DNA from: Nitrososphaerota archaeon
GTDB lineage: Archaea; Thermoproteota; Nitrososphaeria; Nitrososphaerales; Nitrosopumilaceae
DNA length: 64,000 bases
Direction: 5' to 3'
Assembly: GCA_028867755.1 (NCBI GenBank)
Contig: JAGWFT010000001.1
Span: 1,032,727 to 1,096,726 of the forward strand
Below, one piece after another: positions 26,884 through 31,647 of the stretch. The position numbers and the translations under genes are program-made. Under the pieces are notes generated by a model that had not been told where the DNA came from, did no database searches, and saw only the letters and a program-made list of their open reading frames with translations. Every line of letters begins with the position of its first letter. The stretch's first letter is position 1.

Positions 26884-27033
26884 ATGTCAAAAACAATATC
26901 CATGAACTGTATAAAATGTAAAAAAAATATTATTTCAACAGATTTATACAAAATTGTAATGTATATTGTTGATCAAAAGTTTACCGATCATCATTATGAA
27001 CATGTTGAATGCCCAGACAAATTCATCATCTAA
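26884..27033 (+). CDS. Possible small Cys/His protein (49 aa)
   Basis: An ATG-started frame encodes SMNCIKCKKN (CxxC at residues 9-12) and later HHYEHVECPDKF, providing two more possible zinc ligands. Its stop overlaps the stop of the convergent cyclase gene within CTAA, the same arrangement seen at three other convergent pairs in this window, which supports it. No TATA box was identified with confidence. Function unknown. Confidence 0.45.
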   Translation: MSKTISMNCIKCKKNIISTDLYKIVMYIVDQKFTDHHYEHVECPDKFII

Positions 27034-27821
27034 ACATGTAATGCATAAACATCATAGATTTTTCCAGTTTCTTTATCGTGATACGTCCATTGGTTTCCGT
27101 GCCATTCTACTTTTTTGAACAGATCTCTTAGAGATGGATGAAGTTTTTCATAAACATCTTCACCAATTAAGATCTGATTTGGCCTTGCTAACGCAGTAAT
27201 CTTTGCAGCTATGCTTACTGCTGGGCCCAAAATATCTACATGCGATCTAAGTTTATCAGATCCATATCTTACTATTGCATTTTCGCCAAAATCCATTCCT
27301 ATTTTTACACGTAGGTCTGGATAGTCGTATTCGCTTAGAATTGGATTGATCCCTCGCTCTATAACATCGATCATGGCTTTTGCACAGTTTACTGCACTAT
27401 CTGAAACAACAAGTGGGTTTTCTTCTGCAACAAAATAACCTATGACTGCATCACCTACATACTTGAGTACATAGCCTCCATAATTTCTAATCACGTATCT
27501 CATTTCCTGAGAAAATGAACTGATAATTATGCCCAATTTCTCTGCCGGTAGGATTAAAGACATTTCTGTCGAACCGACAAGATCTACAAACACTACAATC
27601 ATGTGCTGTCTTTGTGAAACATGTTCACGTAGGAACTGGTCAGACTCATCTTCCGAATACCCGTATTCGTACCCTTTTTTGAGAGACCCCCAAACCCTCT
27701 TTTGAGTTTCTTTAATGAGCGATTCAGTATCAAGACAGCCTGTCTTTCCACCGCTTAGCATCATATCCACTATATTACTAGTGTTCTTCTCTTCTGGCTT
27801 GGACTCTGATTCGTTACTCAT
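27030..27821 (-). CDS. Class III adenylate/guanylate cyclase-domain protein
   Basis: In this 263-residue protein the catalytic domain begins near residue 73: VVFVDLVGSTEMS supplies the first metal Asp, then NYGGYVLKYVGDAVIGYF the second, and GMDFGENAIVRYG follows. ILGPAVSIAAKITALARPNQILI is the usual late helix. The N-terminal 70 residues are helical with no membrane span. Whether it makes cAMP, cGMP or neither is not settled by sequence. A 43-residue zinc ribbon gene sits 5 bp upstream on the same strand. Confidence 0.88.
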   Translation of the reverse strand: MSNESESKPEEKNTSNIVDMMLSGGKTGCLDTESLIKETQKRVWGSLKKGYEYGYSEDESDQFLREHVSQRQHMIVVFVDLVGSTEMSLILPAEKLGIIISSFSQEMRYVIRNYGGYVLKYVGDAVIGYFVAEENPLVVSDSAVNCAKAMIDVIERGINPILSEYDYPDLRVKIGMDFGENAIVRYGSDKLRSHVDILGPAVSIAAKITALARPNQILIGEDVYEKLHPSLRDLFKKVEWHGNQWTYHDKETGKIYDVYALHV

Positions 27822-28033: not shown

Positions 28034-28870
28034 GTGCAAATTCCATCGAACTCGGCGGATTCTTTTGTAAAATCAATGTCAGAAAAGAGTGAACAGATAC
28101 GCTTGTTGTTCCTTGAACATATCAAGAATCTTACCGTCAAGGCACAAGTAAAAGTAATGCTAGGAGATGGCACTGTTTCAGATCAAGAGTCATTTGACCC
28201 AGCGGCAGTAAGACAATTTTATGATTCCATTTTAAGAAAATTGCCAGATTGGACAACTGATGGTGTATCAGTCACAACAGATCGAGACCTAAGACGCAGT
28301 TTTATCAAGATTGAAGCAAGAGATGGAAATTACATCTTGTCGGCACATATGTCACTTCAGTATCATGCCTTACTTTTCTATAAACTTGACCATGCTGTAC
28401 TTGACATACAAAAAGAACTATCAGAAATAAGCGACAAAGTAAAGGAACTTCTGGAGAACATGGCACCACAAAGCGATAGAGCAATAGAAGAAAAATTAAA
28501 ACAAAAAGGATATGAGGGCATGGATCAGCAAAAACTCTTCGAAGTTTTATTCGAACATGACGACTTGACACAGGAACTAACAGAATCGCTGAAGTCAAGC
28601 CAAAAACAAATTAATGATCTAAAAGAAAGACAGAGTTTTCTTTTCAAAGAACTAGATAATATGTTAATTGAAGTATATCATACAACTCCAGTAATGATCG
28701 ATGAGATGAAAATGATTGCTGCAGAAGAAGGTTGTCTGTGTGTTTTCAATTTAGAACATATGAAAAGTAACTCAAGAGAGGGAAATCTTGATCCTGCAAG
28801 AATACAACCAAAGATAAAAGATAATTTGCTCAAACATATGGACGATATAGAAAAAGTGTTAAAAATTTAA
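28034..28870 (+). CDS. Hypothetical coiled-coil protein (278 aa)
   Basis: This GTG-start protein has no recognised family. Residues 60-115 form a mixed alpha/beta region with SVTTDRDLRRSFIKIEARDG. From about 120 to 230 the sequence is helical with heptad-like runs (IQKELSEISDKVKELLENM; SSQKQINDLKERQSFLFKEL), suggesting a long coiled coil. There is no signal peptide or membrane span. It probably oligomerises. It is divergent from the cyclase unit. Confidence 0.7.
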   Translation: MQIPSNSADSFVKSMSEKSEQIRLLFLEHIKNLTVKAQVKVMLGDGTVSDQESFDPAAVRQFYDSILRKLPDWTTDGVSVTTDRDLRRSFIKIEARDGNYILSAHMSLQYHALLFYKLDHAVLDIQKELSEISDKVKELLENMAPQSDRAIEEKLKQKGYEGMDQQKLFEVLFEHDDLTQELTESLKSSQKQINDLKERQSFLFKELDNMLIEVYHTTPVMIDEMKMIAAEEGCLCVFNLEHMKSNSREGNLDPARIQPKIKDNLLKHMDDIEKVLKI

Positions 28871-28912
28871 AAATTGTTTATATCTTGGTCTTTTTTATCT
28901 ATTGATACTTTA

Positions 28913-28984
28913 GTCAAGGGGCCCATGGAACTGGGACGAGGTGTCTCATAGATATGGGGAGTTGACACCAAGTGACCCCTTGAC
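28913..28984 (+). ncRNA. Candidate structured RNA or leader element
   Basis: The segment is bounded by a perfect 9-bp inverted repeat, GTCAAGGGG (28913-28921) with CCCCTTGAC (28976-28984). Inside are a CCCA/TGGG hairpin and a GGTGTC/GACACC stem, giving a possible three-way junction. The interior is more GC-rich than the flanks. A TATA-like TTTATATC lies about 30 nt upstream. It sits 175 nt before the threonine dehydratase start. The strand is assumed from the upstream box. No known RNA class is recognised. Confidence 0.45.
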
Positions 28985-29158
28985 TTCTTAGATCTGAGAT
29001 CTCAACCAAATGATATTTAGCCTTTTCCAGATCCTTGAAAATTTTAGAAAAAAAGAAACATGCAATGTAATTTTTGCATTAATTGTACCCAAAAAGCAAA
29101 AATGCTCAATATTTTTTGGCCTTGAATTATTTAAGAAACCAAATATACGGTAATCAGA

Positions 29159-30379
29159 GTGAGGATGTTGTTGAATCTAACCTATGATGATATTGTAAAA
29201 TCCCAAAAAATCCAGGGGAGAGTAATACGTAGGACCCCCCTGGAATTATCACGTACTTTTAGCCAGATGACAGGTTCCCAAGTTTACCTAAAATCAGAAT
29301 GTTTGCAAAAAACTGGCTCATTTAAGGTTCGTGGGGCATATGCAAAGATTGCTACTTTGACTGCAGAAGAGAAAAGGAAAGGAGTGATTGCAGCATCGGC
29401 CGGAAACCATGCTCAAGGTGTTGCATTTGCGTCAGCATTAGAAAAAATTCCATGCACGATTGTAATGCCTGTCACTGCATCGCCTGCAAAGGTGTCAGCA
29501 ACTAGATCATATGGTGCAAATGTTGTACTATATGGCACCATTTATGACGAATCATGGTCTAAGGCGCAAGAACTATCAAAAAGAACTGGAGCCACAATAA
29601 TACATGCATTTGATGATGAAACTGTTATCGCAGCACAAGGAGTAATAGGCCTTGAGATAATGCATGATCTTCCAAACGTTGACGAGATCTATGTTCCAAT
29701 AGGAGGCGGCGGTCTTGCAGCTGGAATTTTGAGAGCAGTCAAGTCAAAAAAGCCACATGTCAAAGTCATTGGAGTCCAGTCATCTGCATTTCCAGCGATG
29801 AAGAAATCCTTTGACTCGGGCAAACTTGAAGCAGTGCGAGGACAGAGAACAATCGCAGATGGCATCTCAGTAAAAAAGCCTGGCGAGTCCACATTTAAGA
29901 TAATCAATGAGATGATTGACGATGTAGTTCTAGTGGATGATTCTCAGATTGTCAAGGCCATGTTTCTTTTAATGGAGAGGGCTAAAATGGTAGTAGAGCC
30001 AGCAGGAGCAGTGAGCCTTGCATATCTTCTTGACAAAAAGCCTACCAAAGGAAAGAGAGTGGTCCCAATACTCTCTGGAGGTAATGTTGACATGTACTTG
30101 CTTGGTCAAATAGTTGCCAAAGGTCTAACCGAGATGAGAAGGATGGTCAAGATCTTCATTGTGCTTACTGACAAGCCAGGAGCCCTAAAAGAAGTGGTGG
30201 ATGTGATATCATCCCTAAGCGTGAACATAGTTGAAGTTGTTCATGACAGATTGAGCTCAAACATTCCAGCTGGTACAGCCGGGGTAACTTTGAGTCTAGA
30301 AACTGAGAATCCCAAGCATGCAGAACGCCTCATAGCAAATCTAAGGCAAAGAAACATCATATTCAAGATAGTCACCTGA
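29159..30379 (+). CDS. ilvA: Threonine ammonia-lyase (threonine dehydratase) with ACT domain
   Basis: The 406-residue PLP enzyme converts threonine to 2-oxobutyrate for isoleucine synthesis. The PLP lysine lies in KTGSFKVRGAY (about residues 51-61), the phosphate-binding loop is PIGGGGLAAG, and the C-terminal ACT-type domain starts near 330 (VKIFIVLTDKPGALKEVVDV). The ACT domain predicts feedback control. GTG at 29159 and ATG two codons later are both possible starts. A TTTAAG box lies about 26 nt upstream. Confidence 0.95.
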   Translation: MRMLLNLTYDDIVKSQKIQGRVIRRTPLELSRTFSQMTGSQVYLKSECLQKTGSFKVRGAYAKIATLTAEEKRKGVIAASAGNHAQGVAFASALEKIPCTIVMPVTASPAKVSATRSYGANVVLYGTIYDESWSKAQELSKRTGATIIHAFDDETVIAAQGVIGLEIMHDLPNVDEIYVPIGGGGLAAGILRAVKSKKPHVKVIGVQSSAFPAMKKSFDSGKLEAVRGQRTIADGISVKKPGESTFKIINEMIDDVVLVDDSQIVKAMFLLMERAKMVVEPAGAVSLAYLLDKKPTKGKRVVPILSGGNVDMYLLGQIVAKGLTEMRRMVKIFIVLTDKPGALKEVVDVISSLSVNIVEVVHDRLSSNIPAGTAGVTLSLETENPKHAERLIANLRQRNIIFKIVT

Positions 30380-30393
30380 GAGAGTGTCTAGTG

Positions 30394-31647
30394 TTAACCA
30401 CTTTGCCCAGAAACTAGCATGTAAGAATCAAGTGTAATTATCAACATAGTGAAAAACACTGCTACAATTGATGTTATTTTCCTATTTACAAACTGCCCCA
30501 TAATTTTCTTGTTTGTTGTAAATATTACTAATGGGATAATCGCTAATGGTATCAATAGACTGAGTATCACTTGACTGTATACTAGTATCTGTAATGGATC
30601 AAATCCCAAAAATATTGCAACAGTTGTTGGTATGACATTTATGAATCTCGTGACCAATCTCCTAATCCAGACATTGACCTTTCTACCAAGAAACCCTTCC
30701 ATTACCACCTGTCCTGCCAATGTACCTGCCACAGATGAAGCCAGTCCAGAGGACAGTAGTGTGATCAGAAAAATCATGCCAGCTGCAATCCCAAATACTG
30801 GGATGAGGGTCTTGTAAGCGTCTGAAATTGATTCTATCTGAGAGTGTGCTGGGTTGAATGCAACTGCTGACATTATCAAAATTGCCGCATTTATGATACC
30901 AGCTATTGTTAGAACTATGACAGTCTCAGCGAGATGAAATTTTCTCATCTTGTTTTTTGCTTCAATAGTTTTTCCTTGCGCTCTCTCCTTAGTTAGGGAA
31001 GAATGTAGAAATACAACATGCGGCATTACAGTTGCACCAATTATCCCTACTGATACAAACAATGCATGAGCATTTTCAAATCCAGGTACAAGAGAGTGCA
31101 AGACTATTTGTGTAGGATCTGGTCTTGCAGTAAGTATCTCGTACAAATAACCAAAACTTATGATTGAGACAAAAAGTAAAAAGAGTTGTTCAAGAAGACG
31201 AAACCTCCTAGAGGTCAATCCAATGATAACTATTACATCTACTGCACCAAATATTGCAGCATACATTAGAGGTACATTAAACAAGAGATTTAGAGCGATA
31301 ACAGTTCCAAGATACTCTGCAAGATCAGTAGCTGCAACTACAATCTCAGTACTCAGCCAATATGGAATAATGAAAATTCTTCTGCCAAGTTTTTCGCGTA
31401 GTATCTCTGCCAGTGATTTCCCAGTGGCAATGCCCAATTTCCCTGAGAGATATTGAATCAACATGGCCATAGCACTTGATAGCCAGACTATCCAGAGTAG
31501 AGAGTACCCAAAAGATGCACCACCTTGGATATCAGTGCCATAGTTTCCAGGATCCATATATCCAATACTTACAATTAGAGCAGGACCAGAGTATGCGATG
31601 AATCTAGATATTGCATTCCTAGTTTCCACTAGTCGATTGGATATCAT
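30394..31647 (-). CDS. Nramp-family Mn2+/Fe2+ transporter
   Basis: This 417-residue protein has about eleven membrane spans. The first span contains SIGYMDPGNYGTDIQGG, with the DPGN metal motif, and a later span contains VMPHVVFLHSS, the MPH motif of TM6. Both are the metal-coordinating helices of proton-coupled Nramp transporters. A TTTTATAT box 27 nt before the ATG is preceded by DtxR-like repeats (31680-31713), pointing to metal-dependent control. Confidence 0.93.
   Translation of the reverse strand: MISNRLVETRNAISRFIAYSGPALIVSIGYMDPGNYGTDIQGGASFGYSLLWIVWLSSAMAMLIQYLSGKLGIATGKSLAEILREKLGRRIFIIPYWLSTEIVVAATDLAEYLGTVIALNLLFNVPLMYAAIFGAVDVIVIIGLTSRRFRLLEQLFLLFVSIISFGYLYEILTARPDPTQIVLHSLVPGFENAHALFVSVGIIGATVMPHVVFLHSSLTKERAQGKTIEAKNKMRKFHLAETVIVLTIAGIINAAILIMSAVAFNPAHSQIESISDAYKTLIPVFGIAAGMIFLITLLSSGLASSVAGTLAGQVVMEGFLGRKVNVWIRRLVTRFINVIPTTVAIFLGFDPLQILVYSQVILSLLIPLAIIPLVIFTTNKKIMGQFVNRKITSIVAVFFTMLIITLDSYMLVSGQSG

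Follow-up and report, generated by a model that had tools for sequence, protein, structure and literature searches.

The window, as we call the whole stretch of DNA analyzed, is 64,000 nucleotides from a Nitrososphaerota archaeon of the family Nitrosopumilaceae. The part of interest is the gap between ilvA, encoding threonine ammonia-lyase, and an upstream gene for a conserved 278-aa protein that adjoins ilvA across the family. Pfam and NCBIfam matches were sought for the 278-aa protein and none were found; the gene itself also has counterparts in other families of the order. The protein encoded at 27030-27821 on the minus strand has an adenylate/guanylate cyclase catalytic domain and belongs to the conserved neighborhood. 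An Nramp-type metal transporter gene (30394-31647, minus strand) adjoins ilvA and is convergent with it, with ilvA being kept more often in relatives.

The gap contains a compact folded element, which the initial annotation had described as a perfect 9-bp closing stem, an internal 6-bp stem and a 4-bp hairpin standing 175 nt ahead of ilvA. All of these are present. The closing stem pairs GTCAAGGGG at 28913-28921 with CCCCTTGAC at 28976-28984 and comes to 10 bp when a flanking A-T pair (28912/28985) is added, the inner stem pairs GGTGTC with GACACC, the hairpin is present as CCCATGGAACTGGG, and the distance to the ilvA start counts to 174 nt. The positions of these and other features are collected in Table 1. 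The fold beats 200 of 200 dinucleotide shuffles on each strand, with z scores of -2.98 for the plus strand and -3.49 for the minus strand.

Table 1. Features of the gap before ilvA and its neighbors, in window coordinates
Feature	Position	Strand	Basis or remark
Conserved uncharacterized 278-aa protein gene, convergent neighbor of the RNA	28034..28870	+	adjoins ilvA across the family
TATA-like box GTTTATATC, facing the element from the opposite side	28876..28884	+	sequence and relatives
Predicted structured small RNA, conserved core	28912..28985	-	covariance models R1-R3, G.U versus A.C counts; RNA 5' end towards 28985
Closing stem P1, 5' arm AGUCAAGGGG	28976..28985	-	pairs with 28912-28921
Closing stem P1, 3' arm CCCCUUGACU	28912..28921	-	pairs with 28976-28985
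Small extra hairpin CCCAGUUCCAUGGG of the window species	28922..28935	-	alignments
Inner stem P2, 5' arm GGUGUC	28964..28969	-	pairs with 28940-28945
Inner stem P2, 3' arm GACACC	28940..28945	-	pairs with 28964-28969
Unpaired C-rich motif AACUCCCC, most conserved sequence of the family	28956..28963	-	alignments
Putative RNA promoter, GGAAAAGG plus CTAAATA (BRE/TATA-like)	29014..29028	-	box 29014-29020; promoter about 29-35 nt before the stem
Putative promoter box of ilvA CAAATATAC, outside the RNA	29140..29148	+	conservation in relatives
ilvA, threonine ammonia-lyase, divergent neighbor of the RNA	29159..30379	+	TIGR01127 above cut-off

A DNA search of 61 relatives gave clear matches in many genomes of the same genus, and the distribution was drawn with three covariance models. 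R1, built from 20 sequences, detects 32 carriers among 37 genomes of the genus; run over 250 genomes of the order, it reached one further genus of Nitrosopumilaceae and no other. R2, built from 47 copies, finds it in 41 of 250 Nitrosopumilaceae genomes, including 34 of the 37 from the genus of the window, and has weak matches in two distant genera that share the same gene order, hence the upstream gene was located in other genera and the gap before ilvA was read. A hairpin with the motif CUCCCC is found there in the genera labeled g22, g23, g26, g27, g29, g30 and g36, and was absent from the gaps read in g24 and part of g23. R3, built from 24 of these other-genera sequences, matches 81 of the 250 genomes in 8 genera, and over 300 genomes of the class its matches are confined to Nitrosopumilaceae. 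Together, R2 and R3 reach about 120 of the 250 genomes, and the RNA is present in 11 genera of the family, one of them by synteny only. The genus of the window is known from soil metagenome assemblies, and g27, for which there are many complete genomes, is probably Nitrosopumilus.

The RNA nearly always sits between the uncharacterized gene and ilvA, single copy in most genomes. The order of upstream gene, element and ilvA was found in 20 of 20 loci inspected, although one locus stops before ilvA. In about half of the sampled family the predicted RNA has been passed down vertically at a single locus. Because the fold and its own promoter are kept in about half of the sampled species, the RNA is probably useful, and because several genera are without it, it is not essential family-wide. 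The window genome has the ilvA copy only. Elsewhere in the genus, 2 groups of paralogs are found outside the ilvA locus, group B mostly beside a gene for a FlaI/BasE-like secretion ATPase, and group C within the shikimate gene cluster, immediately 3' of the gene for 3-dehydroquinate synthase II and on its strand. Both groups keep the promoter box, a GATC-containing spacer, the closing stem, the ACUCCCC loop and the AGUUCCAUG strand, which is the part of the small extra hairpin common to many copies and paralogs. One genome has a divergent extra copy in an unrelated context (L109:909-980, the same as L065), in which the promoter box is not recognizable; it is possibly a decaying duplicate.

Compensatory changes in relatives had been named in advance as the check on the stems, and they are found in both, with 0 of 500 shuffles reaching the observed scores. 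In the first set, of 46 distinct sequences, 89% of cells are standard pairs and 16 of 23 pairs have a double-sided change; when the partner is slid by 1-3 columns the signal is gone. Taken by helix, P1 has 96.9% of its cells paired and double-sided changes at 7 of 12 pairs, with A.C mismatches in a few copies, and P2 has double-sided changes at 9 of 11 pairs. The independent set, from other genera, has them at 12 of 14 pairs of the closing stem, again with 0 of 500 shuffles matching the score. A pseudoknot of AACU with AGUU can be drawn in some copies of genus g1, but in g30 these bases are part of the main stem and other copies have no AGUU, so it is not general.

The polarity of the RNA can be read from the same alignments, since a G.U pair on the minus strand becomes an A.C mismatch on the plus strand, and an excess of G.U thereby fixes the strand. 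In the minus-strand reading, G.U pairs stand against A.C mismatches at 91 to 19 in the first set and 50 to 4 in the independent set, these being counts of sequences and not of independent events. The first-set alignment (A4) was made to fit a minus-strand model, which biases it toward the minus-strand result, whereas MAFFT aligned the independent set with no structural input. Alifold gives -16.1 kcal/mol for the minus strand versus -4.2 for the plus strand in the first set, and -14.7 versus -3.1 in the independent set, and all 24 of the other-genera sequences fold more stably on the minus strand. The plus-strand reading has an acceptable minimum-energy fold in the window, yet that fold is not kept in relatives. 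A short plus-strand ORF, ATGGAACTG, is broken in half of the group A copies.

Upstream of the stem on the minus strand, a CTAAATA-type box is found at 28-35 nt in every one of the 53 genus-level copies examined (groups A, B and C), and inspection shows it in the other genera as well. It resembles the boxes before tRNA genes of the window genome, and its spacing is similar to theirs. On this comparative basis the RNA appears to have a promoter of its own, separate from those of its neighbors, and with separate promoters the RNA and ilvA would be divergently transcribed neighbors. The proposal in the initial annotation of an independent small RNA is supported by conservation, by covariation and by a universal putative promoter.

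CUCCCC is the one constant unpaired sequence of the RNA, displayed in the apical loop in the genus of the window and in a bulge below the apical hairpin in other genera, so that it stays unpaired while the helix architecture differs between genera. A motif both constant and unpaired points to recognition by an RNA or a protein. If the targets were ribosome-binding sites, the complement might gather at starts, but over 1.236 Mb of the main contig of the window genome, using rough gene calls and predicted starts in this one genome, 6 of 164 GGGGAG sites fall, in sense orientation, within 40 nt of a start where about 6.7 are expected from the size of that interval, and GGGGAGUU is never near a predicted start. 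Pairing with targets at ribosome-binding sites is therefore unsupported, and targeting of the anti-Shine-Dalgarno type through GGGGAG(UU) was set aside. CUCCCC in hairpin loops has no general enrichment across the window genome. One terminator-like hairpin 3' of a coding gene (L244:17211-17249, main contig 917211-917249) has a loop, AACUCCCCAA, like that of the RNA, and is kept in several relatives with a C-rich, sometimes ACUCCCC, loop.

The reading we favor, with a probability of roughly 0.6 for the whole, is of an RNA gene on the minus strand acting in trans through the C-rich motif. The RNA gene by itself is very probable; the action in trans is put forward tentatively, at somewhat under an even chance. 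The element would be a separate small non-coding RNA gene, divergent from ilvA and heading for the upstream gene's 3' end. Its transcript would start a few nucleotides before the stem and run into the AT/U-rich stretch next to the upstream gene, ending there at a length of roughly 75-110 nt. As a weaker step, the exposed C-rich motif may be the active site, either by base pairing with G-rich RNA (GGGGAGU) or by protein binding, and the action in trans would be like that of bacterial small RNAs with a C-rich loop. In kind, the element is a new family of small structured RNA gene, with its expression predicted.

Among the other explanations, a doubtful one that still deserves weight is a housekeeping ribonucleoprotein RNA or a guide for RNA modification, with the conserved loop binding a protein. 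A loop more constant than the helices speaks for this, as do the mostly single copy and the vertical inheritance, but Rfam has no match for it even at permissive thresholds, and an RNA of that sort sits badly with its lack in several Nitrosopumilaceae genera and its duplication in others.

Less likely again is a pair of convergent transcripts, the minus-strand RNA and an antisense partner, which would make up a sense/antisense pair of hairpins, one controlling the other. The partner would come from the plus-strand TATA-like box to which the initial annotation had drawn attention; that box exists and part of the family conserves it, but the promoter kept universally lies across the element on the opposite strand (29014-29020). 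Read on the RNA strand as ATATAA, the plus-strand box is present in 35 of 37 group A copies, 3 of 6 in group B and 10 of 10 in group C. It and its equivalents in loci L022-L064 stand almost as far from the stem as the RNA promoter does, and they are kept in paralogs with different contexts. Such conservation leaves room for an antisense transcript, and boxes nearly equidistant on both sides, kept in groups A and C and in half of B even though their surroundings differ, are what 2 convergent transcripts would have. Yet in genus g27, which keeps the RNA well, the plus-strand box was sought and not seen, and the bias of the pair changes favors a single strand. An extended version is more improbable still: a Nitrosopumilaceae-specific family of regulatory RNAs in which complementary hairpin RNAs arise from convergent promoters flanking the element, with the minus-strand product a C-rich-loop regulator of metabolism whose copies came to lie next to ilvA, to the shikimate genes and to a gene for a pilus-type ATPase. 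If true, it would be the first RNA regulator of such a kind for ammonia-oxidizing archaea, as far as we have found.

That the element is a leader of ilvA had been suggested in the initial annotation; as a leader or attenuator it would be a hairpin in the 5' untranslated region of the ilvA mRNA with control in cis. It is indeed 100-250 nt before ilvA almost invariably in group A and the other genera, with the plus-strand TATA-like box preceding it. We now consider this very improbable. Both the fold and the changes in its pairs belong to the antisense strand of ilvA, the same RNA is found far from ilvA in groups B and C, and ilvA has a conserved promoter box of its own between the element and the gene, about 11-19 nt before the start codon, near-invariant also in genera without the RNA, which argues against the RNA being a leader of ilvA. 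A small mobile or DNA-level element, such as a MITE-like inverted repeat or a protein-binding palindrome, would account for the inverted-repeat ends and for more than one copy in some genomes, but it is largely refuted by the single copy in the window genome, by G.U-biased changes that are a signature of RNA and not DNA, and by the fixed gene contexts of the copy groups across species, those of groups B and C included, where a mobile element would be dispersed in variable sites.

Returning to the minus-strand RNA gene, its strong covariation, defined promoter and single conserved locus make the transcript searchable now in existing stranded RNA data from cultured carriers, and its covariance model could enter RNA annotation. 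Small RNAs, regulatory and other, are almost uncharted in the ammonia-oxidizing archaea, which are among the most abundant in sea and soil. If the RNA is a regulator, it would be a compact one linked to isoleucine and aromatic amino acid gene neighborhoods.

The initial annotation recognized no known class, and searches agree. Rfam 15 (4227 models), at gathering and permissive thresholds, gives only chance-level matches to the window element, its paralogs and its orthologs, and no tRNA cloverleaf is recognized in the element by ARAGORN or RF00005. It resembles the known archaeal RNAs of Rfam (C/D and H/ACA guides, SRP RNA, RNase P RNA and tRNA) as a small structured archaeal RNA with a TATA-driven putative promoter, and differs from them in matching none of the models and in having no tRNA call. 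A literature search, with subscription papers and supplements outside its reach, found no paper describing the element. Tan1, abundant in marine group II Euryarchaeota and unclassified, is like the element an archaeal non-coding RNA without known function; it is described in PMC5069720, in whose consulted passages no such RNA is named for Thaumarchaeota. Tan1 is 229 nt, from another phylum, and was detected in RNA data (PMC5069720).

With regard to the C-rich motif, the element shows a constant C-rich stretch left unpaired in a loop or bulge, as is usual for the small RNAs of that description. RsaE-type small RNAs of Staphylococcus aureus carry a UCCC motif, and the alphaproteobacterial "cuckoo" RNAs carry a CCUCCUCCC loop. 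We know of no sequence relation of the element to either. It differs from both in being archaeal, in its archaeal TATA promoter, in its long closing stem of 10-17 bp, and in that the complement of its motif has no enrichment at start codons in the window genome. What it shares with them, compared by description and not by homology, is the design of a short independent RNA with a constant C-rich stretch unpaired in a stem-loop and with paralogs that share the loop.
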